DNA from: Saccoglossus kowalevskii
Lineage: Eukaryota; Hemichordata; Enteropneusta; Harrimaniidae
NCBI RefSeq assembly: GCF_000003605.2
Contig: NW_003150563.1
Coordinates: forward strand, 1-28,245
Direction: 5' to 3'
Length of the DNA stretch: 28,245 nucleotides
Of the stretch, positions 4,905-28,245 are shown piece by piece. The position numbers and the translations under genes are program-made. The first letter of the stretch is position 1; every line of letters starts with the position of its first letter. The notes below the pieces were generated by a model that saw only the letters and a program-made list of their open reading frames with translations, was not told the DNA's origin and searched no databases.

Positions 4905-5432
4905 GATTACAATTTGTGATAGGTGACATTTAATAATTAGCAGACAATTTTAAAATATGGAAATCATAATTATGGTAGAACTGCTCTTTTTGCTAGCAGA
5001 CACTAATTAAATCACAAATTACAGTTAAAATATTTAGTGTGCACCTTAACCACCTATGTGGTATAGAACATACATGTATTGATTACAATTTGTGATAGGT
5101 GACATTTAATAATTAGCAGACAATTTTAAAATATGGAAATCATAATTATGGTAGAACTGCTCTTTTTGCTAGCAGACACTAATTAAATCACAAATTACAG
5201 TTAAAATATTGAGTGTGTACCTTAACCACCTATGTGGTATGGAACATACATGTATTGATTACAATTTGTGATAGGTGACATTTAATAATTAGCAGACAAT
5301 TTTAAAATATGGAAATCATAATTATGGTAGAACTGCTCTTTTTGCTAGCAGACACTAATTAAATCACAAATTACAGTAAAATATTGAGTGTGCACATTAA
5401 TCACCTATGTGGTATGGAACATACATGTATTG
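4905..5432. repeat. Local run of three near-identical 176-bp short-class monomers
   Basis: The variant TGTATTGATTAC occurs at about 4905, 5081 and 5257, exactly 176 bp apart. Each copy is followed by the ATTATGGTAGAACTGCTCTTTTTGC ending, in which the 4-bp-shorter CTCTTTTTGC form replaces CCCTATCTATNTGC, and then by TTAAATCACAAATT. This is local amplification of the short class. Confidence 0.8.
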
Positions 5433-5700
5433 ACAACAATTTGTGATAGGTGACATTTAATAATTAGCAGACAATTTTAAAATATGGAAATCATAATTGT
5501 GGTGGAACTGCTCTTTTTGCTAGCAGACACTAATTAAGTCACTAATTACAGTAAAAATATTGAGTGTGCACCTTAACCACCTATGTGGTATGAAACATAC
5601 ATGTATTGACTACAATTTGTAATAGGTGACATTTAATAATTAGCAGACAATTTTAAAATATGGAAATCATAATTATGGTAGAACTGCCCTATCTATATGC

Positions 5701-6420
5701 TAGCAGACACTAATTAAGTCACAAATTACAGTAAAAATATTGAGTGTGCACTTTAACCACTTATGTGGTATGAAACATACATGTAATAACTACAATTTGT
5801 GATAGGTGACATTTAATAATTAGCAGAAAATTTTAAAATATGGAAATCATAATTATGGTAGAACTGCGCTATCTATATGCTAGCAGACACTAATTAAGTC
5901 ACTAATTACAGTAAAAATATTGAGTGTGCACCTTAACCATCTATGTGGTATGAAACATACATGTATTGACTACAATTTGTGATAGGTGACATTTAATAAT
6001 TAGCAGACAATTTTAAAATATGGAAATCATAATTATGGTAGAACTGCCCTATCTATATGCTAGCAGACACTAATTAAGTCACAAATTACAGTAAAAATAT
6101 TGAGTGTGCACTTTAACCACTTATGTGGTATGAAACATACATGTAATAACTACAATTTGTGATAGGTGACATTTAATAATTAGCAGAAAATTTTAAAATA
6201 TGGAAATCATAATTATGGTAGAACTGCGCTATCTATATGCTAGCAGACACTAATTAAGTCACTAATTACAGTAAAAATATTGAGTGTGCACCTTAACCAT
6301 CTATGTGGTATGAAACATACATGTATTGACTACAATTTGTGATAGGTGACATTTAATAATTAGCAGACAATTTTAAAATATGGAAATCATAATTGTGGTA
6401 GAACTGCCCTATCTATTTGC
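5701..6420. repeat. Recent 360-bp dimer duplication within the satellite
   Basis: Positions 5701-6060 and 6061-6420 are two adjacent two-monomer blocks. By eye they differ at only two bases near their ends (ATGG/GTGG and ATATGC/ATTTGC). Both copies share rare variants not common elsewhere: GTAATAACTAC, GCAGAAAATTTT with ACTGCGCTATC, and CCTTAACCATC. The duplication therefore happened as a dimer unit, after the array had diversified. Confidence 0.9.
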
Positions 6421-9400: not shown

Positions 9401-10699
9401 TAGCAGACAATTTTAAAATATGGAAATCATAATTGTGGTAGAACTGCCCTATCTATTTGCTAGCAGACACCAATTAAGTCACCAATTACAGTTAAAATAT
9501 TGAGTGTGCACCTTAACCACTTGTCTGGTTTGAAACATACATGTATTGACAACAATTTGTAATAGGTGACATTTAATAATTAGCAGACAATTTTAAAATA
9601 TGGAAATCATAATTGTGGTATAACTGCCCTATCTATATGCTAGCAGACACTAATTAAGTCACTAATTACAGTAAAAATATTGAGTGTGCACCTTAACCAC
9701 CTATGTGGTGTGAAACATACATGTATGGACTACAATTTGTGATAGGTGACATTTAATAATTAGCAGACAATTTTAAAATATGGAAATCATAATTATGGTA
9801 GAACTGCTCTTTTTGCTAGCAGACACTAATTAAATCACAAATTACAGTTAAAATATTGAGTGTGCACCTTAACCACCTATGTGGTATGGAACATACATGT
9901 ATTGACAACAATTTGTGATAGGTGACATTTAATAATTAGCAGACAATTTTAAAATATGGAAATCATAATTGTGGTGGAACTGCTCTTTTTGCTAGCAGAC
10001 ACTAATTAAGTCACTAATTACAGTAAAAATATTGAGTGTGCACCTTAACCACTTATGTTATATGAAACATACATGTATTGACTACCATTTGTGATAGGTG
10101 ACATTTAATAATTAGCAGAAAATCTTAAAATATGGAAATCATAATTATGGTAGAACTGCCCTATCTATTTGCTAGCAGACACTAATTAAGTCACAAATTA
10201 CAGTTAAAATATTGAGTGTGCACTTTAACCACTTATGTTATATGAAACATACATGTATTGACTACAATTTGTGATAGGTGACATTTAATAATTAGCAGAC
10301 AATTTTAAAATATGGAAATCATAATTGTGGTGGAACTGCTCTTTTTGCTAGCAGACACTAATTAAGTCACGAATTACAGTAAAAATATTGAGTGTGCACC
10401 TTAACCACCTATGTGGTATGCAACATACATGTATTGACTACCATTTGTGATAGGTGACATTTAATAATTAGCAGACAATTTTAAAATATGGAAATCATAA
10501 TTGTGGTAGAACTGCCCTATCTATTTGCTAGCAGACACTAATTAAGTCACTAATTACAGTAAAAATATTGAGTGTGCACCTTAACCACCTATGTTATATG
10601 AAACATACATGTATTGACTACCATTTGTGATAGGTGACATTTAATAATTAGCAGAAAATTTTAAAATATGGAAATCATAATTGTGGTAGAACTGCCCTA

Positions 10700-11240
10700 T
10701 CTATTTGCTAGCAGACACTAATTAAGTCACTAATTACAGTAAAAATATTGAGTGTGCACCTTAACCACTTATGTGGTATGAAACATACATGTACTGACAA
10801 CAATTTGCAATAGGTGACATTTAATAATTAGCAGACAATTTTAAAATATGGAAATCATAATTATGGTAGAACTGCTTGTTTTGCTAGCAGACACTAATTA
10901 AGTCACAAATTACAGTTAAAATATTGAGTGTGCACCTTAACCACCTATGTGGTATGAAACATACATGTATTGACTACAATTTGTGATAGGTGACATTTAA
11001 TAATTAGCAGACAATTTTAAAATATGGAAATCATAATTGTGGTGGAACTGCCCTATCTATTTGCTAGCAGACACTAATTAAGTCACTAATTACAGTAAAA
11101 ATATTGAGTGTGCACCTTAACCACCTATGTGGTATGAAACATACATGTATTGACTACAATTTGTAATAGGTGACATTTAATAATTAGCAGACAATTTTAA
11201 AATATGGAAATCATAATTGTGGTTGAACTGCCCTATCTAT
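10700..11240. repeat. Three-monomer block repeated near-identically at ~13,020-13,565
   Basis: This run contains the rare sequence of variants TACTGACAACAATTTGCAATAG, then ACTGCTTGTTTTGC, then GTGGTGGAACTG, then GTGGTTGAACTG. It recurs about 2.32 kb (13 monomers) downstream with only about two base differences by eye. Related copies of its first part lie near 3,960-4,260 and 7,880-8,190. It is evidence of multi-monomer (higher-order) exchange units. Confidence 0.75.
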
Positions 11241-14200
11241 ATGCTAGCAGACACTAATTAAGTCACTAATTACAGTAAAAATATTGAGTGTGCACCTTAA
11301 CCACCTATGTGGTATGAAACATACATGTATGGACTACAATTTGTAATAGGTGACATTTAATAATTAGTAGACAATTTTAAAATATGAAAATCATAATTAT
11401 GGTAGAACTGCCCTATCTATATGCTAGCAGACACTAATTAAGTCACTAATTACAGTAAAAATATTGAGTGTGCACCTTAACCACTTATCTGGTTTGAAAC
11501 ATACATGTATTGACTACAATTTGTAATAGGTGACATTTAATAATTAGTAGACAATTTTAAAATATGAAAATCATAATTATGGTAGAACTGCCCTATCTAT
11601 ATGCTAGCAGACACTAATTAAGTCACTAATTACAGTAAAAATATTGAGTGTGCACCTTAACCACCTATGTGGTATGAAACATACATGTATGGACTACAAT
11701 TTGTGATAGGTGACATTTAATAATTAGCAGACAATTTTAAAATATGGAAATCATAATTATGGTAGAACTGCTCTTTTTGCTAGCAGACACTAATTAAGTC
11801 ACAAATTACAGTAAAAATATTGAGTGTGCACCTTAACCACTTATCTGGTATGAAACATACATGTATTGACTACAATTTGTAATAGGTGACATTTAATAAT
11901 TAGCAGACAATTTTAAAATATGCAAATCATAATTGTGGTGGAACTGCTCTTTTTGCTAGCAGACACTAATTAAATCACAAATTACAGTTAAAATATTGAG
12001 TGTGCACCTTAACCACCTATGTGGTATGAAACATACATGTATTGACTACAATTTGTAATAGGTGACATTTAATAATTAGCAGACAATTTTAAAATATGGA
12101 AATCATAATTGTGGTGGAACTGCTCTTTTTGCTAGCAGACACTAATTAAGTCACTAATTACAGTAAAAATATTGAGTGTGCACCTTAACCACCTATGTTA
12201 TATGAAACATACATGTATTGACTACCATTTGTGATAGGTGACATTTAATAATTAGCAGAAAATTTTAAAATATGGAAATCATAATTGTGGTAGAACTGCC
12301 CTATCTATTTGCTAGCAGACACTAATTAAGTCACTAATTACAGTAAAAATATTGAGTGTGCACCTTAACCACCTATGTTATATGAAACATACATGTATTG
12401 ACTACCATTTGTGATAGGTGACATTTAATAATTAGCAGAAAATTTTAAAATATGGAAATCATAATTGTGGTAGAACTGCCCTATCTATTTGCTAGCAGAC
12501 ACTAATTAAGTCACTAATTACAGTTAAAATATTGAGTGTGCACCTTAACCACCTATGTGGTATGAAACATACATGTATTGACTACAATTTGTGATAGGTG
12601 ACATTTAATAATTAGCAGACAATTTTAAAATATGGAAATCATAATTGTGGTGGAACTGCCCTATCTATTTGCTAGCAGACACTAATTAAGTCACTAATTA
12701 CAGTAAAAATATTGAGTGTGCACCTTAACCACCTATGTGGTATGAAACATACATGTATTGACTACAATTTGTAGTAGGTGACATTTAATAATTAGCAGAC
12801 AATTTTAAAATATGGAAATCATAATTGTGGTTGAACTGCCCTATCTATATGCTAGCAGACACTAATTAAGTCACTAATTACAGTAAAAATATTGAGTGTG
12901 CACCTTAACCACCTATGTGGTATGAAACATACATGTATTGACTACAATTTGTAATAGGTGACATTTAATAATTAGCAGACAATTTTAAAATATGGAAATC
13001 ATAATTATGGTAGAACTGCCCTATCTATTTGCTAGCAGACACTAATTAAGTCACTAATTACAGTAAAAATATTGAGTGTGCACCTTAACCACTTATGTGG
13101 TATGAAACATACATGTACTGACAACAATTTGCAATAGGTGACATTTAATAATTAGCAGACAATTTTAAAATATGGAAATCATAATTGTGGTAGAACTGCT
13201 TGTTTTGCTAGCAGACACTAATTAAGTCACAAATTACAGTTAAAATATTGAGTGTGCACCTTAACCACCTATGTGGTATGAAACATACATGTATTGACTA
13301 CAATTTGTGATAGGTGACATTTAATAATTAGCAGACAATTTTAAAATATGGAAATCATAATTGTGGTGGAACTGCCCTATCTATTTGCTAGCAGACACTA
13401 ATTAAGTCACTAATTACAGTAAAAATATTGAGTGTGCACCTTAACCACCTATGTGGTATGAAACATACATGTATTGACTACAATTTGTAATAGGTGACAT
13501 TTAATAATTAGCAGACTATTTTAAAATATGGAAATCATAATTGTGGTTGAACTGCCCTATCTATATGCTAGCAGACACTAATTAAGTCACTAATTACAGT
13601 AAAAATATTGAGTGTGCACCTTAACCACCTATGTGGTATGAAACATACATGTATTGACTACAATTTGTAATAGGTGACATTTAATAATTAGCAGACAATT
13701 TTAAAATATGGAAATCATAATTATGGTAGAACTGCCCTATCTATATGCTAGCAGACACTAATTAAGTCACTAATTACAGTAAAAATATTGAGTGTGCACC
13801 TTAACCACTTATGTTATATGAAACATACATGTATTGACTACCATTTGTGATAGGTGACATTTAATAATTAGCAGAAAATTTTAAAATATGGAAATCATAA
13901 TTATGGTAGAACTGCCCTATCTATTTGCTAGCAGACACTAATTAAGTCACAAATTACAGTAAAAATATTGAGTGTGCACCTTAACCACTTATCTGGTATG
14001 AAACATACATGTATTGACTACAATTTGTAATAGGTGACATTTAATAATTAGCAGACAATTTTAAAATATGGAAATCATAATTGTGGTGGAACTGCTCTTT
14101 TTGCTAGCAGACACTAATTAAATCACAAATTACAGTTAAAATATTGAGTGTGCACCTTAACCACCTATGTGGTATGAAACATACATGTATTGACTACAAT

Positions 14201-15709
14201 TTGTAATAGGTGACATTTAATAATTAGCAGACAATTTTAAAATATGGAAATCATAATTGTGGTGGAACTGCTCTTTTTGCTAGCAGACACTAATTAAGTC
14301 ACGAATTACAGTAAAAATATTGAGTGTGCACCTTAACCACCTATGTGGTATGCAACATACATGTATTGACTACCATTTGTGATAGGTGACATTTAATAAT
14401 TAGCAGACAATTTTAAAATATGGAAATCATAATTGTGGTAGAACTGCCCTATCTATTTGCTAGCAGACACTAATTAAGTCACTAATTACAGTAAAAATAT
14501 TGAGTGTGCACCTTAACCACTTATGTGGTATGAAACATACATGTACTGACAACAATTTGCAATAGGTGACATTTAATAATTAGCAGACAATTTTAAAATA
14601 TGGAAATCATAATTTTGGTAGAACTGCTCTTTTTGCTAGCAGACACTAATTAAATCACAAATTACAGTTAAAATATTGAGTGTGCATCTTAACCACCTAT
14701 GTGGTATGGAACATACATGTATTGACAACAATTTGTGATAGGTGACATTTAATAATTAGCAGACAATTTTAAAATATGGAAATCATAATTATGGTAGAAC
14801 TGCCCTATCTATTTGCTAGCAGACACTAATTAAGTCACAAATTACAGTAAAAATATTGAGTGTGCACCTTAACCACCTATGTGGTATGAAACATACATGT
14901 ATTGACAACAATTTGTAATAGGTGACATTTAATAATTAGCAGACAATTTTAAAATATGGAAATCATAATTGTGGTTGAACTGCCCTATCTATATGCTAGC
15001 AGACACTAATTAAGTCACTAATTACAGTAAAAATATTGAGTGTGCACCTTAACCACCTATGTGGTATGAAACATACATGTATTGACTACAATTTGTGATA
15101 GGTGACATTTAATAATTAGCAGACAATTTTAAAATATGGAAATCATAATTATGGTAGAACTGCCCTATCTATATGCTAGCAGACACTAATTAAGTCACTA
15201 ATTACAGTAAAAATATTGAGTGTGCACCTTAACCACCTATGTGGTATGAAACATACATGTATGGACTACAATTTGTGATAGGTGACATTTAATAATTAGC
15301 AGACAATTTTAAAATATGGAAATCATAATTATGGTAGAACTGCCCTATCTATATGCTAGCAGACACTAATTAAGTCACTAATTACAGTAAAAATATTGAG
15401 TGTGCACCTTAACCACCTATGTGGTATGAAACATACATGTATGGACTACAATTTGTGATAGGTGACATTTAATAATTAGCAGACAATTTTAAAATATGGA
15501 AATCATAATTGTGGTGGAACTGCTCTTTTTGCTAGCAGACACTAATTAAGTCACTAATTACAGTAAAAATATTGAGTGTGCACCTTAACCACTTATGTTA
15601 TATGAAACATACATGTATTGACTACCATTTGTGATAGTGACATTTAATAATTAGCAGAAAATTTTAAAATATGGAAATCATAATTATGGTAGAACTGCCC
15701 TATCTATTT

Positions 15710-16430
15710 GCTAGCAGACACTAATTAAGTCACAAATTACAGTAAAATATTGAGTGTGCACCTTAACCACTTATCTGGTATGAAATATACATGTACTGAC
15801 TACAATTTGTAATAGGTGACATTTAATAATTAGCAGACAATTTTAAAATATGCAAATCATAATTGTGGTGGAACTGCCCTTTTTGCTAGCAGACACTAAT
15901 TAAGTCACAAATTACAGTAAAAATATTGAGTGTGCACTTTAACCACTTATGTGGTATGAAACATACATGTATTGACTACAATTTGTGATAGGTGACATTT
16001 AATAATTAGCAGACAATTTTAAAATATGGAAATCATAATTGTGGTAGAACTGCCCTATCTATTTGCTAGCAGACACCAATTAAGTCACCAATTACAGTTA
16101 AAATATTGAGTGTGCACCTTAACCACTTATCTGGTTTGAAACATACATGTATTGACAACAATTTGTAATAGGTGACATTTAATAATTAGCAGACAATTTT
16201 AAAATATGGAAATCATAATTGTGGTATAACTGTCCTATCTATATGCTAGCAGACACTAATTAAGTCACTAATTACAGTAAAAATATTGAGTGTGCACCTT
16301 AACCACCTATGTGGTATGAAACATACATGTATGGACTACAATTTGTGATAGGTGACATTTAATAATTAGCAGACAATTTTAAAATATGGAAATCATAATT
16401 GTGGTAGAACTGCCCTATCTATTTGCTAGC
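15710..16430. repeat. Four-monomer higher-order block, also near 6,960 and 9,110
   Basis: The four monomers show an ordered set of diagnostic variants. The first has CTTATCTGG with TGCAAATC. The second has GCACTTTAACCAC. The third has CACCAATTAAGTCACC, then CTGGTTTG and GTATAACTG. The fourth has TGTATGGACTAC. The same order occurs starting near 6,960 and 9,110, and in a more diverged form near 2,145. In the 6,960 copy the third monomer carries TTATATG in place of CTGGTTTG. The order is more than chance mixing of variants and indicates a higher-order repeat of about 715 bp or longer. Confidence 0.75.
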
Positions 16431-17329
16431 AGACACTAATTAAGTCACTAATTACAGTAAAAATATTGAGTGTGCACCTTAACCACCTATGTGGTATGAA
16501 ACATACATGTATGGACTACAATTTGTGATAGGTGACATTTAATAATTAGCAGACAATTTTAAAATATGGAAATCATAATTGTGGTGGAACTGCTCTTTTT
16601 GCTAGCAGACACTAATTAAGTCACTAATTACAGTAAAAATATTGAGTGTGCACCTTAACCACCTATGTGGTATGAAACATACATGTATTGACTACAATTT
16701 GTGATAGGTGACATTTAATAATTAGCAGACAATTTTAAAATATGGAAATCATAATTGTGGTGGAACTGCCCTTTTTGCTAGCAGACACTAATTAAGTCAC
16801 AAATTACAGTAAAAATATTGAGTGTGCACTTTAACCACTTATGTGGTATGAAACATACATGTATTGACTACAATTTGTGATAGGTGACATTTAATAATTA
16901 GCAGACAATTTTAAAATATGGAAATCATAATTGTGGTAGAACTGCCCTATCTATTTGCTAGCAGACACTAATTAAGTCACTAATTACAGTAAAAATATTG
17001 AGTGTGCACCTTAACCACCTATGTGGTATGAAACATACATGTATTGACTACAATTTGTGATAGGTGACATTTAATAATTAGCAGACAATTTTAAAATATG
17101 GAAATCATAATTGTGGTGGAACTGCCCTATCTATTTGCTAGCAGACACTAATTAAGTCACTAATTACAGTAAAAATATTGAGTGTGCACCTTAACCACCT
17201 ATGTGGTATGAAGCATACATGTATTCACTACAATTTGTAATAGGTGACATTTAATAATTAGCAGACAATTTTAAAATATGGAAATCATAATTGTGGTAGA
17301 ACTGCTCTTTTGCTAGCAGACACTAATTA

Positions 17330-18420
17330 AGTCACAAATTACAGTAAAACTATGAGTGTGTACCTTAACCACTTATGTGGTATGAAACATACATGTATTG
17401 ACTACAATTTGCGATAGGTGACATTTAATAATTAGCAGACAATTTTAAAATATGGAAATCATAATTATGGTAGAACTGCCCTATCTATATGCTAGCAGAC
17501 ACTAATCGAGTCACTAATTACAGTAAAAATATTGAGTGTGCACCTTAACCACCTATGTGGTATGAAACATACATGTATTGACAACAATTTGTGATAGGTG
17601 ACATTTAATAATTAGCAGACAATTTTAAAATATGGAAATCATAATTATGGTAGAACTGCCCTATCTATTTGCTTGCAGACACTAATTAAGTCACAAATTA
17701 CAGTTAAAATATTGAGTGTGCACCTTAACCACTTATGTTATATGAAACATACATGTATTGACTACAATTTGTGATAGGTGAAATTTAATAATTAGCAGAC
17801 AATTTTAAAATATGGAAATCATAATTATGGTAGAACTGCTCTTTTTGCTAGCAGACACTAATTAAGTCACAAATTACAGTTAAAATATTGAGTGTGCACC
17901 TTAACCACCTATGTGGTATGAAACATACATGTTTTGACTACAATTTGTGATAGGTGACATTTAATAATTAGCAGACAATTTTAAAATATGGAAATCATAA
18001 TTATGGTAGAATTGCCCTATCTATTTGCTAGCAGACACTAATTAAGTCACAAATTACAGTTAAAATATTGAGTGTGCACCTTAACCACCTATGTGGTATG
18101 AAACATACATGTATTGACTGCAATTTGTGATAGGTGACATTTAATAATTAGCAGACAATTTTAAAATATGGAAATCATAATTATGGTGGAACTGCTCTTT
18201 TTGCTAGCAGACACTAATTAAGTCACAAATTACAGTAAAACTATTGAGTGTGTACCTTAACCACTTATGTGGTATGAAACATACATGTATTGACTACAAT
18301 TTGCGATAGGTGACATTTAATAATTAGCAGACAATTTTAAAATATGGAAATCATAATTATGGTAGAACTGCCCTATCTATATGCTAGCAGACACTAATCG
18401 AGTCACTAATTACAGTAAAA
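17330..18420. repeat. Five-monomer (~891-bp) duplication near the right end of the array
   Basis: Three rare variants recur together at a spacing of 891-892 bp: ACAGTAAAACTAT (17,341 and 18,232), TTGCGATAGG (about 17,410 and 18,302) and AATCGAGTC (CG at 17,507 and 18,399). The left copy has lost one T in ACTATTGAG. This is a five-monomer duplication. Confidence 0.8.
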
Positions 18421-19271
18421 ATATTGAGTGTGCACCTTAACCACCTATGTGGTATGAAACATACATGTATTGACAACAATTTGTGATAGGTGACATTTAA
18501 TAATTAGCAGAAAATTTTAAAATATGGAAATCATAATTATGGTAGACTGCCCTATCTATTTGCTAGCAGACACCAATTAAGTCACAAATTACAGTTAAAA
18601 TATTGAGTGTGCACTTTAACCACTTATCTGGTTTGAAACATACATGTATTGACTACAATTTGTAATAGGTGACATTTAATAATTAGCAGAAAATTTTAAA
18701 ATATGGAAATCATAATTATGGTAGAACTGCCCTATCTATTTGCTAGCAGACACTAATTAAATCACAAATTACAGTTAAAATATTGAGTGTGCACCTTAAC
18801 CACCTATGTGGTATGAAACATACATGTATTGACTACAATTTGTGATAGGTGACATTTAATAATTAGCAGAAAATTTTAAAATATGGAAATCATAATTATG
18901 GTAGAACTGCCCTATCTATTTGCTAGCAGACACTAATTAAGTCACTAATTACAGTAAAAATATTGAGTGTGCACCTTAACCACTTATGTTATATGAAACA
19001 TACATGTATTGACTACAATTTGTGATAGGTGACATTTAATAACTAGCAGAAAATTTTAAAATATGGAAATCATAATTATGGTAGAACTGCCCTATCTATT
19101 TGCTAGCAGACACTAATTAAGTCACAAATTACAGTAAAAATATTGAGTGTGCACCTTAACCACTTATGTTATATGAAACATACATGTATTGATTACAATT
19201 TGTAATAGGTGACATTTAATAATTAGCAGACAATTTTAAAATATGGAAATCATAATTGTGGTAGAACTGCC

Positions 19272-19322
19272 CATCTATGCAATTTAAATCACCAATTTAA
19301 TTAAAAATATCGGGTGTGCACT
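19272..19322. repeat. Decayed terminal partial monomer; right boundary of the satellite
   Basis: After the last ordinary GTAGAACTGCCC, the sequence still follows the start of a monomer (AATTTAAATCACC, AATTTAATTAAAAATAT, GGGTGTGCAC) but with many changes and without the GCTAGCAGACAC landmark. From about 19,323 no satellite similarity is visible. Decay at an array edge is expected, because edge monomers escape homogenisation. Confidence 0.75.
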
Positions 19323-19337
19323 GGCATTTAGCTTCCA

Positions 19338-19364
19338 CTCATTAATTATCACTATATTAATGAG
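19338..19364. repeat. Inverted repeat just outside the satellite edge
   Basis: CTCATTAAT (19,338-19,346) and ATTAATGAG (19,356-19,364) form a perfect 9-bp stem with a 9-nt loop, 16 bp from the satellite boundary. A smaller stem, AGATT-5-AATCT, follows directly. Confidence 0.6.
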
Positions 19365-19389
19365 ATTATCGCAATCTATATGCACTCTA

Positions 19390-19516
19390 GCATTACGGTA
19401 ACTTATCAACCTCTGCTACACTTCTGTCGATATGATCACCATACTGCTGTTGTGTATATTTCGTGTTATTCTTGTAATAACCTCATAATATTATTATACA
19501 TCTGTCACCGTAATGC
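19390..19516. repeat. 10-bp inverted repeat with ~107-bp spacer
   Basis: GCATTACGGT at 19,390-19,399 is the exact reverse complement of ACCGTAATGC at 19,507-19,516. It is short enough to be chance in AT-rich DNA, but it contains a CpG and lies close to the array boundary. Confidence 0.4.
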
Positions 19517-19852
19517 CAGAAGTTACAGCATGCCGTAATTGTGCGGTATTTTATGGGGTATTTTCATCCTACCATATAAGGAAATGCAAATTCCAAATAT
19601 GGAATGATTACATGCATAAGCGTCCTCTAATGATAAAAACAAACATGGCTGCCACTAGACTTTGAATTGACTCCACACAAAGAAGTTCGCTGATTCTGTT
19701 CTAAACATTTTGGACTTCAGCTTTCCCATTATGTACCTTTGGAAGGAAAAGATGTATAATAGTAAGGTTATTCTGAGGATATCTCAAAATATGCACTCAG
19801 ACGGTATGTCGTTGCATCAACTTCATAATAACCTCATAATATTATTATACAT
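19475..19852. repeat. 27-bp direct repeat, two copies 351 bp apart
   Basis: A 27-bp sequence beginning TAATAACCTCATAATATTAT is identical at 19,475-19,501 and 19,826-19,852. A perfect match of this length is unlikely by chance even in AT-rich DNA. It may be the trace of a small insertion or a local duplication. Confidence 0.7.
19572..19591 (+). promoter_or_regulatory. CArG-like box plus octamer motif
   Basis: CCATATAAGG (19,572-19,581) fits the CC(A/T)6GG CArG consensus bound by SRF-type MADS proteins. ATGCAAAT (19,584-19,591) is the exact octamer bound by POU/Oct factors. The two are 2 bp apart. No gene that they would serve is recognised nearby, so this may be coincidence. Confidence 0.25.
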
Positions 19853-21079
19853 TTTTTCCCTGCTTTTAATAATAATTAATGAAACTATAACACAAAATCG
19901 CAATAAAGAACCTTTAGCATTATGCAATATTTAATAGTGTTCTTGTGTCTGAAGTGAACAAAAGAATGTGACGTTAAAGTGACACATAATTTTCTAAATA
20001 AGGAAGACATACAAATGCATCAATAAAATTTTTGAACACATCTGTATGTGACATTTCAAAGATTGGTGAATTGTATTCGGTCTCAGAAATATAATAAAGG
20101 TGCTGTTGTTTGAGGTGTACTTGTGGTATTATATGTGGGGGTGAAAGTGCCTATATATGAATCATTGCTTTCACTCATAATGTCACAATCGTCATACGGT
20201 TCACATTCAAATTTTAAATAAAAAATGTATTTTACGTAAGTTGTACGCATGGGACTCATCTATGACACAACATGTTATGACGACTGTGACAATGACACTG
20301 GTAACAGTTATAATAATGGAATGCAACACATTTCATTGAAGTTCAAATGAGTTTATTTAAAAGTTTTCTGTAAAAACATTAAAAAAAATTCATTTCCAAA
20401 AATGATTTGTCGAAACAAATTTCATTGTGGTAAACAATGACAATAGATTTTCCTAATTGAATTTAAAAAAAACAAACATATTCACTAACCAAATATAAAC
20501 TGTGATTATTTGTGTGTGATAATTATTGACAGGTCAAAAAAATTCAAAGCTCAGTGATAATTGTGCCAAAATTTTAATGAGCTTTTCAGGTTGTCTTTTC
20601 AAAATTGTTTGTTAATTCCCTAAAATAAGTAATTTTTACTGATGACTTATCACAAAAAATCCTATGCTATGATATTTCCTGTACTGGGAGTGCATACATT
20701 TTCCCTGATAATTAGATCAAGAATATATGATGAATGCAGTAAGGCACAAAATATCTGCAAGATATAAAATTGTAATGTTAAAAAAAACAAAATTTAAAAG
20801 CAGGTCCAATTTACTGTGGGTAAGTTTCAGATGATGTGATCTCACCCAAAACATTTATGCTTATGGACTACTGTCATGTCCTATTTGTCTTAACAGTGTC
20901 TGATGCCATAGCAGATACCCACAAAGCTGTACATTGTGTGATACCTGCAGCCCAGGAAAGGATGGATGGGGTGATGACATGATTACCATGGTTTTAAATT
21001 CTGAAAAGAAAGAATTCTGAAATAAGAAATCTTTGAAATCAGACTTCTACCAAAGGTAATTCTGGGATTTATGGACGGC

Positions 21080-21119
21080 CTAAAATTTGTGGCTGTTTTT
21101 CAACAGCTACAAATTTTAG
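21080..21119. repeat. Long perfect hairpin (18-bp stem, 4-nt loop)
   Basis: The arm CTAAAATTTGTGGCTGTT (21,080-21,097) pairs with 21,102-21,119 across a TTTC loop, with one G-T wobble and no mismatch. It lies about 175 bp beyond the stop codon of the minus-strand gene, so it could form in that transcript or be the core of a small palindromic repeat. Confidence 0.85.
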
Positions 21120-21128
21120 TACTGGTTA

Positions 21129-21152
21129 CTTAGGGATGCTTGCATCCCTAGG
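21129..21152. repeat. Second hairpin in a row (11-bp stem)
   Basis: TAGGGATGC (21,131-21,139) and GCATCCCTA (21,142-21,150) are perfect reverse complements with two bases between them. Adding one G-T wobble and one C-G pair outward gives 11 pairs. It starts 9 bp after the preceding hairpin. Confidence 0.8.
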
Positions 21153-21154
21153 CT

Positions 21155-21169
21155 GCTGGTTTTTCCAGC
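21155..21169. repeat. Third hairpin in a row (5-bp GC-rich stem)
   Basis: GCTGG-TTTTT-CCAGC follows the second hairpin after 2 bp. Alone it would be trivial. As the third of three tandem stem-loops it forms part of a structured 90-bp patch. Confidence 0.6.
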
Positions 21170-21213
21170 GCTCTCAGATGCTTGTATTTCAAACTTGGAG
21201 CTTTTGGATAGTA

Positions 21214-21247
21214 AAGCCGATCAAGTTTTAATCAAGCCGATCACGTT
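21214..21247. repeat. Short tandem direct repeat AAGCCGATCANGTT
   Basis: AAGCCGATCAAGTT (21,214-21,227) and AAGCCGATCACGTT (21,234-21,247) differ at one base and are spaced 20 bp apart, just downstream of the gene's 3' end. Confidence 0.6.
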
Positions 21248-21284
21248 ATAGGTAGGCATGACTGAACATTGTAAAACTAAGCTA

Positions 21285-21298
21285 TTTATTTATTTATT
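21285..21298 (-). promoter_or_regulatory. Overlapping AATAAA polyadenylation signals at the 3' end
   Basis: On the minus strand the last coding bases and the stop run into AAATAAATAAATAAATAG, giving three overlapping AATAAA hexamers. The first overlaps the TAA stop (21,294-21,296). A polyadenylation signal at the stop codon would give a very short 3' UTR, typical of compact mobile-element genes. Simple-repeat chance cannot be excluded. Confidence 0.45.
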
Positions 21299-22262
21299 TG
21301 TCTAATGGACAAGTGGCACAAGCATCAAATCCAAGATCGGAAGGTGTAATTGGCAATTGCTGTATCTGGAGCAGACACCCTTTCCATGATGGAACTTTCT
21401 GCCATTCATTTCCATGAATATCTGTTAAGTCATTAAGAAATACTGTTGAAATCACTATTGGTATCCATTTTATATTTAATTCTTTTGCAATACGTATTCG
21501 ATGATTGCCATCATATAAGTATGCATGTCCAGTGTCAAGTTTAACTGAGAGTGTAAGTGGTTCTGAAATTTTGAAATTTTCACGGATAATTTTTGGTTTT
21601 ATAAATCCATCAAGGAAGTCACTTCTCTTGCTTGGATTTTTAATTACTCTTCTATCTACCTCCCGATATCTCCAAATTACAGATGTTTCTACCCATTCGA
21701 CTGACCGTTTATATAGTTTAGGTATATTAACTATTTGTTTATCAAGTGAAAATCTTCTATCTTGCAATTTTGTTTGCTCTATTTTACCTGTTGTTTGAAT
21801 GGTTTTAATATTGGTTTCACTTGTAATTTGCTTTCTAACTAGGATATTCTGTGTAATTAGTTCATATGCCATGGTAACTCTCATGCTGTTTAGCATCTCT
21901 AAACTTGTGTCTACTGACAATGGTGCATCAAGCAATATGCACTTGGCATATGCACAAATTAACAACCCACAGTTTTGTGTATCATTCTGCTTTATGAATA
22001 ATTTATTTTGAGACAAGACTTTTACAGTCCATTGGGTTAAATGATTTTTATTTCCATATCTTAATAGATGTATAAATTGTATGTATTTAAATAGCTGTTC
22101 TAAAAGGTGTTTGCCATTACTATCAAGTGGGCCATAAGGATCAATTACATAAATTTCCTGTAGTTTAATTTTGACTATAAATATAATCCAGTGTGATCCC
22201 CTTAAATTTGAAGGTATATAGATATATTCATAATTGAACCAATTTGTTTGTCTATAGGGCAT
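21294..22262 (-). CDS. Ulp1 (C48) protease body + ParB/sulfiredoxin-like domain, C-terminal segment
   Basis: 322 codons from an internal ATG. The same frame is open to 22,370, immediately after the TAA, giving 36 more codons (YIRLL to LNAGLP) that belong to the same domain, so the ATG is not the natural start. Residues 14-105 match the Ulp1/SENP-type cysteine protease: H24 in GSHWIIF, D41 in VIDPYG, Q92 and C98 in QNDTQNCG, in the expected order and spacing. These proteases cleave SUMO-like tags and are known in some Mutator-like elements. Residues 219-272 contain LYDGNHRIRIAKEL, the DGNHR signature of the ParB/sulfiredoxin nucleotide-binding fold, an unusual partner for Ulp1. The C-terminus has a small Cys pair (CATC). 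The segment ends in TAA, overlapping AATAAA signals. Without readthrough, the full C48 domain would not be made. Confidence 0.75.
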   Translation of the reverse strand: MPYRQTNWFNYEYIYIPSNLRGSHWIIFIVKIKLQEIYVIDPYGPLDSNGKHLLEQLFKYIQFIHLLRYGNKNHLTQWTVKVLSQNKLFIKQNDTQNCGLLICAYAKCILLDAPLSVDTSLEMLNSMRVTMAYELITQNILVRKQITSETNIKTIQTTGKIEQTKLQDRRFSLDKQIVNIPKLYKRSVEWVETSVIWRYREVDRRVIKNPSKRSDFLDGFIKPKIIRENFKISEPLTLSVKLDTGHAYLYDGNHRIRIAKELNIKWIPIVISTVFLNDLTDIHGNEWQKVPSWKGCLLQIQQLPITPSDLGFDACATCPLDK

Positions 22263-22370
22263 TGGTAACCCAGCATTTAATGAACTTGACAGTTTTTGGA
22301 GTGCCCAACAAGCATCTTGGACTAAAATTGTATTCTGTTTATTATTGCCTTCAACAAGAAGTCTTATGTA

Positions 22371-22373
22371 TTA
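22371..22373 (-). other. In-frame TAA inside the Ulp1 domain
   Basis: The frames before and after are identical (both start positions are congruent modulo 3). The stop falls in the Ulp1 motif WL-x-D-x-x-I-N-x-Y-L-x-L-L, read here as WLDDCLIT-stop-YIRLL, exactly at a variable position. No residue is missing around it. It is a point nonsense change, a readthrough site or a base error. Confidence 0.85.
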
Positions 22374-25300
22374 TGTAATCAAACAGTCATCTAGCCAATG
22401 TCCATTTATTAAATCAAAGATACATTGTTTTTGTATATTTATCCCTACCACTAAAATATCATCAATATCTCGCATATCCTCCAACATTTTCTCATACTTT
22501 TTCTTTCCAATTGATATTACAATTTTATTTTTACCACAACTATTCATATCATTATCAGAGCTATGTTTGAATTTAATATCGGATGATGAATATTTACTCT
22601 GAGTTATTCTGTCATAAAATGCTATGCATTCCTCTGCCTCAAAACAGTCAGTGTGAAGTTTACTAAATGTACAAAATGATTTATTCTGTGGGCTGGACAT
22701 AGATGTGAGTTCCCACTTCCCAACATTTTTAATATAAGTATTGTATTGTACGTTTCCAGAACTAACAGATTTACAAACAACAATGGTCTTCATTGAAAAT
22801 ACAGTCCTTTTACTTATAAAAGTTGGGAATTCATCAACAACCGCGGAAAGATCAAGATTTGCTGTTAGTTGGAAGTCAGTTGATGTTTTTTTTGTATAAA
22901 GTATTATTGTTTGTCCTACTTGAAAAATGTAAGGTTCTGCACTAGGCTTAAAACTTCTAAATTTATCTGGCTTTGTACATGTGTTAGAATTACATTTTGG
23001 ATTCATAGGCTTTAATCTTATTTCATTTATTGCATTTTTAACAGAGTCTTTTGTGAAATTGTTGACAGGCAGGGATGTAATTTCTTTAATACCACTTGTT
23101 GACACAGTTTGACAGTGCAGACAATTAAAATGTTGTAATAGTTTAATAACAAATTTCTTTTTACTTTGTGATGTTAGCATGTCTCCTAAAACATGATTTA
23201 TAAACTTTATTGTAGATACATCTGCAAGTGGTTCACCTAGGTTCATTGAAACTGTTTTCAGTATATTAAAATCTCCATGAATTATTTTTTTCATGGTATC
23301 ATCTTTGTGTGTTTTTTGGCTTATTTCTGCTGCTATATTTTTAACTGCCAAACAATTTTGCATTGCTGATAATAAAGTGTTTTGCCAGTGAGGTATGGGT
23401 GAAATTTTTTCTTTTATATCTTTTTCAAAAAATATTATGTACTCATGATAATTTGGAGGAATTTGTGTAATGTGATAAGTGTCAGTATCATCACACATGA
23501 TTGGAAGATTATCTTCAGAATATAATGTTGAGACATAGTGACCACAACTGGCTGTAGGGCCAGCATGAGATACACTTGACTTTATTATGTAGTTATTTTC
23601 ACTAATAGGGTTTTTCATTAAAGGAGAAAGATCAATTTTGTCCTCCAGTTCAATTTCATTTTTGATTTTAGATAACCGTTTTGTTCTTTTATTCCAGCTG
23701 TGCCTGGTCAATAATATGACAAGAATATTAGATGTTGATTTAATGAAGGCTTGTGACGTAATTATTCGATTTTCATTTTTACATTGCAAACTCTCACAGT
23801 CTACGTGAATTTCCTCTCTTTCAAATAAACGCTGTAAAATATCTTGTAGTGTAAAACTATCTTGTTTTTGGTTAGTTGGGAAGTTTAGTTGTATGTAACT
23901 TAATATTTCATCTGTTCTTGTTTTATGCCCACATGTGTTGCAAGTTCTTTCTCGTGTTATTATCATTTCTGTCTGTAAGCCCCTGTACTTGAGGAATTTA
24001 TCAATGAAGTTAATATAAAATTCATGTGCATCATGTTGCTTCCTTAATTGTAATCTCGCTATTTGACTGCTAGACCTAAGTGTATTGGCCATATCTGTTT
24101 TTGTTAGAGACATTTTGGAAGTTGTTAACATCTTGTTTAGTAACTGATGCAAGTTGTCAAACGAAAATCGTTCATTTTGTGATACTTCTATGAAATCCCT
24201 GAGTGTTGATTGATTTTTCATCAGGGAATTCTTTACTGATTCACAGTGTAGAATACTTTGAATAACAGCATTAAACCAACAATTATTAGAAAAGTTTTCT
24301 AATCCAACAACTACATTACTATTTGCCGAAATCGTTTGAATTGAATGATTTGGATCTGGTGTTGAAGGTGACAAATGATTTAGTTCATCTTTTATTAAAT
24401 CAGGTGTATTATGCCACTCTTGGCCAAGTTCTCTGTTGAAACGATGTAAATCGTTTGGTCCTGAACATTGTTTTGTATTGCTAATAAATTTCTTGAATGT
24501 ATCTGTTGACGTAGTACTTTTAATTTGTCTTAATTTTTGCGAAAAAACCTTTACTGACTTTGGTGGTGTGGCTTGATAAGAAAATGTTCTTTGGTTTTTT
24601 CTTTTTTTGCTATCCCATTGTTCTCTAATTGTTGTTTGCATTTTGCGTTTCTTACCAACGAGAAGATTGCTAGTAAATGCATTTTGTTGACCTTTTATAT
24701 CCCCATATACATCAGAAATAAATTCATCCAATCTAAGTGTTTTACCGCCAAGTTGAATATTCTTTAAAATCCCCATTCTATGTTCACTATGACCTATTGT
24801 CCTTGCATTTCCCCTGTCAATGAAATTATAGTTTTTATTAGTTAATTTATTTGTCTGTTCATGACGTGTCAGATCTCCCAACAATAACCCAGACCAAAAA
24901 GGACATGTTGGTAAGTAATATTTGCACATAAAATCTGCTAATTTGGGTGAATAATATGCATTTGTTTTGATCATTTCTGTATGTTGTTGATTTTCAGCTT
25001 CAATTTTTGCCTTTTCTTTGATCTCATTGAAATGTTGTTTGAAATTTGAATTGAATGTTGTAAGAAAATCCTCTTCAGTTTGTTGGGCTAAAACAGTTTT
25101 TGTCTCTTCTTTTGAAAGATTATCTGGTTTTTCAATGCAATATTTAATGGTGACCCCACCTAAGTTATCAATGTTCCTGACTTTTGACTTCAAATGTTTG
25201 CATGCCTGTTCTAATGTTGGTGATTGTTGTTTACTGTGCAAAAGCACCATTATTTTATACAAAGTTTCATCAAAATCATCTAAGTTTGGAGAATTTAAAA

Positions 25301-26168
25301 GAAGACTCATGCAATACATGATGCTCAGATTTGCTGATTTTTCACTAATGAATGTTTTGAGTGAACGTTTAACCTTTTTCATGAAATGACTTGCACATGC
25401 ATGAGGAATTGTTTTTTGCAAGTCATCCTTTCTTGATTGGCCATTGACTATACGCCAGGCGCTTTGTAGAAAAGCTTCTAATGTTTCCTGATTAAAAACT
25501 TCTAAAGTTGCCAAACGAAAAACCCAGCTTTCATCACTGTTAATTTGTAATGGTTGTGATATTTCATGAAATCCAAATATTGTTTTTTCTGCATGACGAA
25601 AACACTGCATCCAGAATGATATGTATGGTAAGCTGTGTGCTTCAGTGATTATAAAGGAAAGCGGGAGATCTGGCCCTTGACCAACTGGATTTGCAACTGT
25701 TAGTTCATAGTAAAACAAACGCCCAGATGATAATGTTGATTTAAGACATCCACCAGTAGCATCCCAGAAAGCCACAACCTTTTTACTCAAATCATGCCAA
25801 AACCGGACACCTGCTTCAGTAAAACAAACAACAAAAAGTGGTGAGACACTAAAATGTTGTATAAACCCTTTAACTTTACAATTTTGTTGGTTAGATGCCA
25901 TTTCATCTTTCATTGTCAGAATACTTTGTATTTCATCATTATGTAGTCTTTTACTGGTTCTGGCTTCACTTGAAATTTTCTGAAATACACTTTGAGTTTT
26001 ACCAGTTGTATTTCTGTTGCCTGAAAGAATCTGTTTTCCATCTAAATTTTCCATTTCTGTTATGTAGTGTTTAAATGGCTTTGTACCAGCTGCAAATTTG
26101 TTTTCTAACTCACGTCTTCTCTCGCCACGAATGGGTCGAGCTATATTTTCTGTTGGATCATGCTTCAT
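22371..26168 (-). CDS. DDE transposase + USP deubiquitinase + degenerate USP + start of Ulp1
   Basis: 1265 codons; the frame is also open for about ten codons upstream of this ATG, joining the preceding segment. Residues 110-470 look like a MULE-like DDE transposase: D136 in FWDATGG, D212 in NSDESW, C258/H261 in CASHFMKK, and E462 in SEHRMGILK as likely third acidic residue. Two KKRK clusters (506-509, 521-524) form a bipartite nuclear signal. Residues 618-915 are a USP (peptidase C19): GLENFSNNC with C630, QHDAHEF at 711-717, zinc cysteines 743/746/791/796, and H877 in SCGHY with D893/D894, so the catalytic set is intact. Residues 926-1160 repeat the USP plan without catalytic residues (CLHC 1016-1019, C1059/C1064, GNVQY where GHY is expected). 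The end, GHWLDDCLIT, opens a C48 protease cut by TAA. The enzyme would act in the nucleus; ubiquitin as substrate is inferred from the family. Confidence 0.8.
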   Translation of the reverse strand: MKHDPTENIARPIRGERRRELENKFAAGTKPFKHYITEMENLDGKQILSGNRNTTGKTQSVFQKISSEARTSKRLHNDEIQSILTMKDEMASNQQNCKVKGFIQHFSVSPLFVVCFTEAGVRFWHDLSKKVVAFWDATGGCLKSTLSSGRLFYYELTVANPVGQGPDLPLSFIITEAHSLPYISFWMQCFRHAEKTIFGFHEISQPLQINSDESWVFRLATLEVFNQETLEAFLQSAWRIVNGQSRKDDLQKTIPHACASHFMKKVKRSLKTFISEKSANLSIMYCMSLLLNSPNLDDFDETLYKIMVLLHSKQQSPTLEQACKHLKSKVRNIDNLGGVTIKYCIEKPDNLSKEETKTVLAQQTEEDFLTTFNSNFKQHFNEIKEKAKIEAENQQHTEMIKTNAYYSPKLADFMCKYYLPTCPFWSGLLLGDLTRHEQTNKLTNKNYNFIDRGNARTIGHSEHRMGILKNIQLGGKTLRLDEFISDVYGDIKGQQNAFTSNLLVGKKRKMQTTIREQWDSKKRKNQRTFSYQATPPKSVKVFSQKLRQIKSTTSTDTFKKFISNTKQCSGPNDLHRFNRELGQEWHNTPDLIKDELNHLSPSTPDPNHSIQTISANSNVVVGLENFSNNCWFNAVIQSILHCESVKNSLMKNQSTLRDFIEVSQNERFSFDNLHQLLNKMLTTSKMSLTKTDMANTLRSSSQIARLQLRKQHDAHEFYINFIDKFLKYRGLQTEMIITRERTCNTCGHKTRTDEILSYIQLNFPTNQKQDSFTLQDILQRLFEREEIHVDCESLQCKNENRIITSQAFIKSTSNILVILLTRHSWNKRTKRLSKIKNEIELEDKIDLSPLMKNPISENNYIIKSSVSHAGPTASCGHYVSTLYSEDNLPIMCDDTDTYHITQIPPNYHEYIIFFEKDIKEKISPIPHWQNTLLSAMQNCLAVKNIAAEISQKTHKDDTMKKIIHGDFNILKTVSMNLGEPLADVSTIKFINHVLGDMLTSQSKKKFVIKLLQHFNCLHCQTVSTSGIKEITSLPVNNFTKDSVKNAINEIRLKPMNPKCNSNTCTKPDKFRSFKPSAEPYIFQVGQTIILYTKKTSTDFQLTANLDLSAVVDEFPTFISKRTVFSMKTIVVCKSVSSGNVQYNTYIKNVGKWELTSMSSPQNKSFCTFSKLHTDCFEAEECIAFYDRITQSKYSSSDIKFKHSSDNDMNSCGKNKIVISIGKKKYEKMLEDMRDIDDILVVGINIQKQCIFDLINGHWLDDCLIT

Positions 26169-26187
26169 TTTTCCTTCATAATATATT

Positions 26188-27456
26188 TCACATTTGTATA
26201 ATTTTTTTCATTTTTATTGTCACTGTCACACAACAGTGTTGCGACTGACAATGACCTCGTGCTTGGAAAAAGCAGCCCTTTGGATTTGGGGAATTTGTTG
26301 TTGTGACTTTGTGATAATTAAACATTATAGCACAGTATGGATTTGACTGTGCAATACCTTTTTCAATTGTTGACTGCCATTCACCTTTTGGAAATAGTCT
26401 CCCAGTTTGATGTTTTCGAAGATTTTCCCATGTATTTGGGGGGAAAATGAAAGAGGATGATTTTGGTATATCATTCTCTACAAATGCAGAAGGCATGTCA
26501 CAGCCAAACACATGTCTCATTGTATTAGGAGATATAAATTCTCTAATTAGTAATTTATTGGCTGGTTCATGTGAAGGAGAATAAATTTTCTTCTCCTGCT
26601 CATGTTGGTTAATTTCATTTTCACTATCACTAGATTCTGTGTCATACTTGACACTACTGTCATTTAATTCTGTATTTGGTATTTCTCCAAGCTTTGCATT
26701 ATAACTACCACTTTCCTTTTCTTGGTCATCACTGATGTTATTTTCAATTTCATATTTTGTATTATTGTTATTGTTACTATTTATAAAGTGACCAACCTTG
26801 CTTGACATTTGTTTTTGTACTTGTGTATCTATAATTATATTTTCCTGGCTATTACATAATTGAGACTGGTCATTATTTACAAATAGAACTAAATCCCTGG
26901 TTGAATCTGTTGAGTTTATTGCATTTAGTATTGGTGATTTATCTTCTATTGTTTTCCTAATATTTTCTTTTATTTCACTAGTTGGCATTTTTGTTCCATT
27001 AATCTCAAATACTGTACTACTATCGTTACGATTTTCTAAACCACACACAAATGTAATCCCTTTTCCAGATTTAAAACCAGAATTCAATTGCAAACAATCA
27101 TAATGATACCATTCATTACACATTTGACATTTGATGTATTGTTTTTTTTTATCATATTTTGTTTTACAGACACAATATAACTTTTCACTTTTGTTTGAAT
27201 TTTTTTCAGTACTTAACCATGATTGACGGCGAAACTTTTTTGGTAGCTTAGCATTTCGTTTTGGTCTGGCCTGTTTTTCTTTTTTCTCATTCGAAAGCTT
27301 GGGTGATTTATCAAATGAAGATTTATTGTTAAGATTAATCTTTTTATGTTTGTTATTTAGGCCTGTTTCCTTGTTATCCACTGTATTGACTAAGGATGAT
27401 AGAAGATGTTGGATATTCCCTCTGTTTGCTCTCCATATCTCCTGTAAATATTTCAC
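26188..27456 (-). CDS. PHD-finger segment of the transposon protein
   Basis: Open frame of 422 codons whose first codon is GTG. No ATG begins it, because it is the continuation of the preceding segment after a frameshift in A8. A basic, nuclear-localisation-like stretch (residues 58-77, RPKRNAKLPKKFRR) precedes a PHD finger at about 95-141: C95-x-C97, C110-x2-C113, H118-x2-C121, then C138. The eighth ligand expected at 141 is Glu (FVCGLE), so the site may be degenerate. Residues 150-300 are low-complexity, acidic and Asn-rich (N5 run), probably disordered. Residues 395-409 (C-F-F-x6-C-x4-C-C) resemble the Cys cluster that precedes the DDE core in MULE-like proteins. PHD fingers usually read histone H3 tails, so this could guide targeting to chromatin. 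The final IIQM is probably out of frame, after the A7 run at 26,202-26,208. Confidence 0.75.
   Translation of the reverse strand: MKYLQEIWRANRGNIQHLLSSLVNTVDNKETGLNNKHKKINLNNKSSFDKSPKLSNEKKEKQARPKRNAKLPKKFRRQSWLSTEKNSNKSEKLYCVCKTKYDKKKQYIKCQMCNEWYHYDCLQLNSGFKSGKGITFVCGLENRNDSSTVFEINGTKMPTSEIKENIRKTIEDKSPILNAINSTDSTRDLVLFVNNDQSQLCNSQENIIIDTQVQKQMSSKVGHFINSNNNNNTKYEIENNISDDQEKESGSYNAKLGEIPNTELNDSSVKYDTESSDSENEINQHEQEKKIYSPSHEPANKLLIREFISPNTMRHVFGCDMPSAFVENDIPKSSSFIFPPNTWENLRKHQTGRLFPKGEWQSTIEKGIAQSNPYCAIMFNYHKVTTTNSPNPKGCFFQARGHCQSQHCCVTVTIKMKKIIQM
26202..26208 (-). other. Putative +1 frameshift site 2 (A7 run)
   Basis: Minus-strand ATG-AAAAAAA-TTATAC. Reading straight through gives IIQM and TGA. 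Skipping one A gives LYKCEIYYEGK and enters the transposase frame with no stop. The Cys in KCEIYY and the RPIRGERR that follows are what is expected after the preceding Cys/His cluster in MULE-like proteins. Confidence 0.75.
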
Positions 27457-27823
27457 TGTTTTTTTTGTTTGTAGGCCATGCAGCAGTTTTAGCTACTCTA
27501 GTCCAAAATGTTTTGTCTGTTATGTCCGAATATTCACTATCTAAAGGAAGTTGTACCCATATAGCTTCTGCTAAACAATTGTAGTCTCTAATTTTTTTTC
27601 TATTGTTCACAAAACGTGATTGTTTTGATTCAGGGGCACCACCCAATAAACCGTCATGAATGTCAATTACCCTTTTAACTCTACAAGTACTGTTTTTGCA
27701 TTTGTACTTCAAATCATGCAATTTGTACAAAGAGCTGCACCTGGGTGGCTTGATTGCAGCTGAGAACCCATTTCCTATGTCAGTCTTAAAATATCTTGAA
27801 AGAAAAAGTTGACTACAAGACAT
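27374..27823 (-). CDS. N-terminal segment of the transposon protein, unknown domain
   Basis: 149 codons from the first ATG, but the frame is open upstream through the whole 57-bp minisatellite to the window edge at 28,245, so this ATG need not be the true start. I do not recognise the product. Visible features are a basic C-x4-C stretch (C42, C47), a stretch DIHDGLLGGAPES and a C83-containing motif RDYNCLAEAIW that faintly recalls an OTU cysteine box, without an OTU histidine box found later. From about residue 121 the meaningful reading leaves this frame: the A8 run at 27,459-27,466 carries one base too many, and the sequence continues as TVKYLQEIW in the frame of the next segment. The last 29 residues, ending in SQYSG, are therefore probably an out-of-frame tail. 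Ahead of the ATG the frame encodes Ser/Pro/Arg-rich 19-residue repeats. Confidence 0.6.
   Translation of the reverse strand: MSCSQLFLSRYFKTDIGNGFSAAIKPPRCSSLYKLHDLKYKCKNSTCRVKRVIDIHDGLLGGAPESKQSRFVNNRKKIRDYNCLAEAIWVQLPLDSEYSDITDKTFWTRVAKTAAWPTNKKNSEIFTGDMESKQREYPTSSIILSQYSG
27459..27466 (-). other. Putative +1 frameshift site 1 (A8 run)
   Basis: Minus-strand AAC-AAAAAAAA-CAGTG. Upstream of the run the coding frame is that of the RDYNC segment. Downstream the coding frame is that of the PHD segment. Skipping one A joins them without a stop. The upstream segment otherwise runs into a short tail and TAA at 27,374, and the downstream frame has a TAG about 50 bases upstream of the run. Confidence 0.7.
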
Positions 27824-27861
27824 AGGAGTAGAGGTTCCTGTATTTGGACGTTGGAGAGCAG

Positions 27862-28245
27862 AGGAACAAGTGTTGGAAGGTCTAACTGACCTTCTAGCAC
27901 TCGAACAAGGCGGAGGGGAGGGACGAGTGCTGGAAGGTCTAACTGACCTTCTAGCACTCGAACAAGGCGGCGGGGAGGGACGAGTGCTGGAAGGTCTAAC
28001 TGACCTTCTAGCACTCGAACAAGGCGGAGGGGAGGGACGAGTGTTGGAAGGTCTAACTGACCTTCTAGCACTCGAACAAGGCGGAGGGGAGGGACGAGTG
28101 TTGGAAGGTCTAACTGACCTTCTAGCACTCGAACAAGGCAGCGGGGAGGGATGAGTGCTGGAGGGTCCAACTGACCTTCTAGCACTCAGACAAGGCGGAG
28201 GGGAGGGACGAGTGTTGGAAGGTCTATCAGACCTTCTAGCATTCA
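27862..28245 (-). repeat. 57-bp coding minisatellite, ~6.5 copies, runs off the right edge
   Basis: Units begin at 27,875, 27,932, 27,989, 28,046, 28,103, 28,160 and 28,217, each 57 bp (19 codons), GC-rich unlike the surroundings. In the frame of the N-terminal segment they encode repeats of the type ARRSVRPS-N/S-TRPSPPPCSS with no stop up to the edge: Ser/Pro/Arg-rich and probably disordered. Each unit contains an imperfect hairpin, GTGCT-A-GAAGGTC-5-nt loop-GACCTTC-C-AGCAC, 12 pairs with one mismatch. The unit length divisible by three keeps other frames open too, including LEGQLDLP on the minus strand and LEGLTDLLALEQGGGEG on the plus strand; I regard these as shadows. Confidence 0.85.

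Follow-up and report, generated by a model that had tools for sequence, protein, structure and literature searches.

The window analysed here, 28,245 nucleotides of the hemichordate Saccoglossus kowalevskii (NW_003150563.1), comprises the whole of contig C4052 and most probably contains a large cut-and-paste DNA transposon of the Rehavkus (Mutator-like) type that has foldback-style ends and has decayed. Positions 1–19278 (3–19278 by TRF) carry, on the plus strand, 107.9 copies of a 180-bp satellite, which we read as the inner part of the 3′-side terminal inverted repeat (TIR) and which is truncated by the contig edge. A non-coding core part (19279–21293, minus strand), delimited by blastn of other copies, leads from the gene to the satellite; 627 bp of this 3′ region (20035–20661) are present in C2198 and C323, two of the contigs with further copies, and absent from C789. 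The coding pieces all lie on the minus strand and are collinear: a PHD finger, a putative DDE core, a ubiquitin-specific protease (USP), a Ulp1/SENP-type protease and a putative ParB-like domain, distributed over four open stretches (28243–27374; 27492–26188; 26207–22371, 1278 aa; and 22370–21294, 358 aa). At the 5′ side of the gene lies an N-terminal region without a known domain (27374–27860, minus strand), identified by copy comparison through matches in C2780, C2198, C2916 and C2261, and ahead of it a 57-bp minisatellite (27861–28241), found by a tandem-repeat search, inside which the contig ends and which recurs in C2916 and, in diverged form, in C720. An inverted repeat (GAGTGCTGGAAGGTC...GACCTTCTAGCACTC) is present within every minisatellite unit, and two or more reading frames run open through the array.

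The PHD finger (27043–27174) lies where the initial annotation had put it and matches Pfam PF00628 at E 1.1e-5 (25.8 bits vs a cut-off of 24), but its last zinc ligand, a Cys, is missing from the window copy (ENR vs EKC in C2780). The PHD and DDE parts are separated by a frame break (26188–26207) that falls within one 972-aa frame in C2780; across it extends a C..C..H zinc finger (26160–26274), recognized from the sequence, which presumably resembles the FLYWCH/WRKY-GCM1 type of Mutator-like elements (MULEs). The putative DDE core (24648–26030) was placed by eye at D149, D225 and E475 of the 1278-aa frame (25761–25763, 25533–25535 and 24783–24785, respectively; spacings of 75 and 249), with a CxxH between the second D and the E. 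The three residues that had been proposed as a MULE-like core are thus present by motif and spacing, but the MULE domain (Pfam PF10551) gives no match at E 10 with HMMER filters on. The only Pfam match to this region is Fz (0.043), and in NCBIfam it matches two ribonuclease Y models (6.8e-4 and 0.0059), taken for a coiled-coil artefact.

The USP (C19/UCH; 23460–24308) matches Pfam PF00443 at E 6.8e-23 (82 bits) and is related in the PDB to USP8, USP9X, USP2 and others (best E 6.9e-7). It has the motifs typical of USPs (a Cys box, QHDAHEF, CxxC pairs, CGHY and an Asp); the UCH profile and the Cys/His/Asp set both place the domain in C19. One of the two USP units originally proposed is thereby borne out, but the other, in the conserved region that follows (∼22608–23432), was rejected: comparisons with USP gave it no backing, with no profile support (hhalign E 0.067, probability 0.8%), a BLASTP E-value of 0.13 and a global alignment score vs the USP that is reached by 331 of 3000 shuffles. 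In the remote relative on C1962 (stretch L050, 7230–8133, minus strand, ∼30% identical), USP is followed by C48 with no space for this region, which may reflect a deletion in that copy.

An in-frame stop (22371–22373) precedes the C-terminal part in the window copy, the same join being open in C2780 and C2198. The Ulp1/SENP-type protease (peptidase C48; 21849–22244) matches Pfam PF02902 at E 3.3e-11 (43.9 bits) and, in the PDB, SENP2 (1.7e-8) and SENP1. Its complete catalytic set, H-D-Q-C, is present as claimed, and profile and residues agree on C48. The ParB-like domain (21444–21590), with a DGNHRI motif, best matches PHROGs 1033 (E 1.1e-4) over residues 82–130 of the minus-strand reading 21297–21833; of the seven PHROGs families listed four are ParB-like, with this one the best and the others at 0.027 to 0.3. 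The earlier ParB-like assignment is tentative, with these matches in PHROGs but none to this C-terminus in Pfam or NCBIfam. No relatives were found in IMG/VR, GTDB genomes or phages.

The genome (572 Mb) was searched with three of the four window pieces (the 5′ piece left out) and for the C48 family, which gave five matches. A contig with mitochondrial COX1 and 7 in-frame TGA codons, together with a reading recognised as NAD1, marks the genome as that of an animal. Nine other contigs carry at least two pieces (C2780, C2198, C1676, C323, C2916, C2261, C720, C1962 and C2071), and C789 and C4193 carry a single piece each. Relative to the window, C2780, C2198, C1676 and C323 share mostly 94–100% of residues (78–90% at frame shifts), C2916 shares 48–84%, C2261 33–56% with short stretches higher, C720 33–54%, and C1962 and C2071 29–44%. 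C1962 retains USP then C48; in C2261 the PHD piece is matched in other parts but not in the finger itself, and C2916 has no ParB part. In C323 (stretch L012, 1166–8510) the C48 part is interrupted by ∼7.3 kb of other DNA, with alignment ends that overlap by 6 bases, probably a nested insertion that is partly common to C789 (stretch L054).

Piece order and strand are kept in 9/9 of the contigs with two or more pieces, and different copies bridge different joins. The N-terminal region and the start of the PHD finger share a 275-aa frame in C2780, the whole finger lies in a 434-aa frame of the window, its second half runs through to the DDE core in the 972-aa frame of C2780, and DDE, USP and the region after it occupy the 1278-aa frame of the window; the C-terminal join is open in C2780 (468 aa) and C2198 (436 aa). 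Because order and strand are conserved and each adjoining pair shares a frame in some copy, the view that all domains belonged to one protein, as initially proposed, is supported. The order in the gene is N-terminal region, PHD finger, zinc finger, putative DDE core, USP, conserved region, Ulp1 protease and ParB-like domain, and the encoded protein is estimated at a minimum of about 2,100 residues.

Selection was assessed as the ratio of nonsynonymous to synonymous change (dN/dS) by a filtered Nei-Gojobori count; with 39 tests, isolated P values of about 0.03 count for little, and the ratios are pulled up because the copies are decaying. Between the window and C2916, dN/dS across 1000 codons is 0.62 (P 0.0018); by part it is 0.57 for DDE (P 0.034), 0.53 for USP (P 0.08), 0.62 for the region after USP (P 0.10) and 0.42 for C48 (P 0.022). 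Against C2261 the values are 0.61 overall (P 0.004), 0.41 for DDE (P 0.0004), 0.49 for ParB (P 0.22) and 2.36 for the region after USP, and against C720 DDE gives 0.49 (P 0.010). Totals for the close copies are 0.49 (C2780, P 0.018), 0.52 (C1676, P 0.020), 0.69 (C2198, P 0.16) and 0.39 (C323, P 0.28). These ratios provide fair evidence that the DDE part was held by selection, and weak evidence that USP and C48 were.

As judged from the arrangement of its copies, the 19.3-kb satellite is the element's own TIR. The initial annotation had left it unconnected; it makes up half of the element's anatomy. In C2198 the gene has satellite to either side, in opposed orientations, and across seven contigs (C4052, C2780, C2198, C1676, C323, C789 and C4193) 8/8 satellite flanks (six 3′, two 5′) fit inverted ends. 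The gene-to-satellite junction of the window is common to C2198, C323 and C789; in C2780 the satellite joins at ∼21157. Beyond the satellite follows an outer repeat of ∼264 bp. A 200-bp sequence there is 96.5% identical between the 5′ side of C2198 and the 3′ side of C323, is also found in C1676 (5′) and C4193 (3′), and has 21 matches in the genome. Eleven of the 14 placeable junctions between satellite and outer repeat have the same phase to within a base; those of C2792 (left), C645 and C3978 are off phase through truncated matches.

The outer repeat ends at a common terminus, 5′-ACTCGGCTGAAGC. Of the 21 ends, 17 were examined (two others run off contigs and two were left out). In 15 of these the terminus is present and the DNA outside it is unrelated; C2501, C342 and C645, three of the 15, have diverged forms that were added to the pattern after the alignment had been inspected; at C3978 and C2443 the terminus was not placed. 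With up to three mismatches, the 36-base terminus has 12 matches in the genome and the reversed control 0. Two short elements possess both ends: one at C4171 586673–588149 (1,477 bp), made up solely of outer repeat and satellite, which lies with its 9-bp duplication on a 0.9-Mb contig, and one at C2792 263649–266913 (3,265 bp), the interior of which was read only in part. The 9-mers that flank these two copies agree at 7/9 and 8/9 positions, compared with at most 6/9 in 206 pairings of unrelated ends, and target-site duplications of other lengths from 6 to 12 reach 5/12 at best. Defined ends and 9-bp target-site duplications thus support the claim that the locus is a transposon. A motif of the terminus, GCTAGCAGACAC, occurs 103 times on the plus strand of the window and 0 times on the minus strand, always within the satellite, which suggests that its copies are putative repeated transposase sites.

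In the old copies on C2916, C720 and C2261, homology extends past the 57-bp minisatellite into broken reading frames, with a DGLHL-like block in all three and an LLCAGINNIGV-like block in C2916; we take these blocks to be typical of SGNH hydrolases. The SGNH-like frames, at about 4864–5750 of stretch L044 in C2916, are conserved between the three copies. Of the C2916 upstream pieces submitted to Pfam, one gave a weak match to Lipase_GDSL_2 (E 0.07) and the other none.

We file the element as Rehavkus-like, rather than as an established member, because satellite ends, 9-bp duplications, PHD finger, minisatellite and inverted termini match together. Several observations weigh against this reading. 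Membership is judged by anatomy. The DDE core has no relevant profile match in Pfam, PDB, PHROGs or NCBIfam, and Pfam gives none to a FLYWCH/WRKY-GCM1-type finger for the C..C..H motif. The reading frame of the window copy is interrupted by breaks at 27374–27492 and 26188–26207 and by the stop at 22371–22373, and every gene copy seen is broken. The PHD part appears unconstrained (dN/dS 1.21 vs C2916, 1.36 vs C2780 and 1.34 vs C1676), and USP reaches 0.95 vs C2261 and 1.03 vs C2198. Both 9-bp duplications are imperfect, and no contig was seen with the gene and both ends, the whole element being assembled across contigs. Finally, in the stretches compared no 180-bp satellite accompanies the old copies C2916, C2261 and C720, and there is no convincing TIR around them (best, a 34-base match of 79% in C2261, E 0.035).

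Could the array instead be an ordinary satellite that took up a host gene, or an unrelated transposon, by insertion or capture, with later co-amplification? Near-identical copies do sit in satellite contigs, and the junctions differ (about 21157, 27498 and 27935), as expected from segmental copying. The satellite flanks, however, are inverted rather than parallel, their junctions with the outer repeat keep one phase in 11 of 14 cases, and the short paired-end elements on C4171 and C2792 carry 9-bp duplications; this origin is therefore very unlikely. The frame breaks and the stop in the window would also fit two or more adjacent genes, a transposase and a protease gene, that decay has made to read as one. 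Such a division is contradicted by the window frame of 1278 aa, which unites DDE, USP and the next region, by the C2780 frame from part of PHD to DDE, and by the C-terminal join that is open in C2780 and C2198, and we regard it as highly improbable.

An unlikely but more substantial alternative is that the transposon belongs to a different superfamily (Ginger-, KDZ- or Galileo-like foldback) and has only its ends in common with Rehavkus. It would accord with a DDE core that no profile matches, with foldback ends arising in several superfamilies (PMC4079207) and with the presence of Ulp1 in Ginger1, once together with PHD (PMC2836005). Against it, Rehavkus is jointly matched by the PHD finger, the 9-bp duplications, the minisatellite and the inverted termini with their satellite.

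For the Rehavkus-type element, a mode of action may be sketched. The zinc finger would bind GCTAGCAGACAC, the motif that recurs in terminus and satellite, the DDE core would cut and join with a 9-bp stagger, and the PHD finger would tether the complex to histone tails. USP and Ulp1 could act on the transposase, or on chromatin and repair proteins at the site, by stripping off ubiquitin and SUMO. The use first proposed, removal of both tags with histone reading for the choice of targets, is likewise hypothetical. The catalytic residues of both proteases, present in the window copy, speak for an active USP and Ulp1 in the ancestor. Self-protection of the transposase would be the simplest role for them, and removal of marks from donor or target chromatin the next simplest. 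A transposase that reads histone tails, removes ubiquitin and SUMO, and thereby works in a silenced satellite grown from its own ends, element and satellite arising together from one system, is a tentative picture that we consider improbable. A deubiquitinase and a SUMO protease in one transposase, both with catalytic residues, render the idea of ubiquitin and SUMO in transposition directly testable, and the 19-kb array adjoining the gene is a clear case of satellite DNA as a transposon arm. The domain combination is the news; the satellite ends identify the element.

Rehavkus elements are described from Arthropoda and Annelida, with Rehavkus-1_TC and Rehavkus-1_HR as named members, and have 9-bp duplications, TIRs of 26–400 bp, a PHD finger and a minisatellite (PMC6446971). 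The 9-bp duplication is common to the present element, where it is imperfect (7/9 and 8/9 in two copies), as is the PHD finger, the second half of which is in frame with the DDE part in C2780. Both have a minisatellite near one end; the published one stands before the 3′ TIR, the 57-bp array of the window on the 5′ side. In the 9.5-kb Rehavkus-1_TC of Tribolium, the inverted termini similarly include tandem repeats, here of a 164-bp satellite (PMC10218199). Neither 'protease' nor 'ubiquitin' is mentioned in the PMC6446971 main text, and Repbase entries may differ. In Tetris of Drosophila virilis the TIR likewise consists of an outer domain and tandem repeats that grow into satellite arrays, but according to the portions of that report used here no transposase was found, and the repeats are ∼220 bp in arrays of up to 66 copies (PMC4079207). 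At 107.9 copies, the window arm exceeds these figures and those given for Rehavkus-1_TC (mostly five and eight monomers). The Tm1 Mutator/Foldback elements of root-knot nematodes share a composite TIR, mostly 9-bp duplications and, putatively, a MULE-type transposase, but differ in a 496-aa FLYWCH-MULE protein, for which the sections drawn on report no proteases, and in a ∼14-bp internal motif (PMC3169594).

With respect to the proteases, the initial description of the combination as unusual was fair, but it has precedents. Ginger1 transposases carry either a C-terminal Ulp1, accompanied in one of them by PHD, or OTU, a Trichomonas transposase carries a C19 peptidase, and the authors of the Ginger1 study propose that ubiquitin and SUMO play a part in transposition (PMC2836005). 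Ginger1 differs in its Gypsy-integrase-type DDE and in having OTU or Ulp1 per element, USP and Ulp1 together being absent from the table of that paper. No transposase with both was found in the open-licence library searched, and the Repbase Rehavkus entry may already list these domains. The separate pieces were known before; apparently new are USP and Ulp1 in one transposase, the ParB-like tail and the long satellite arm.

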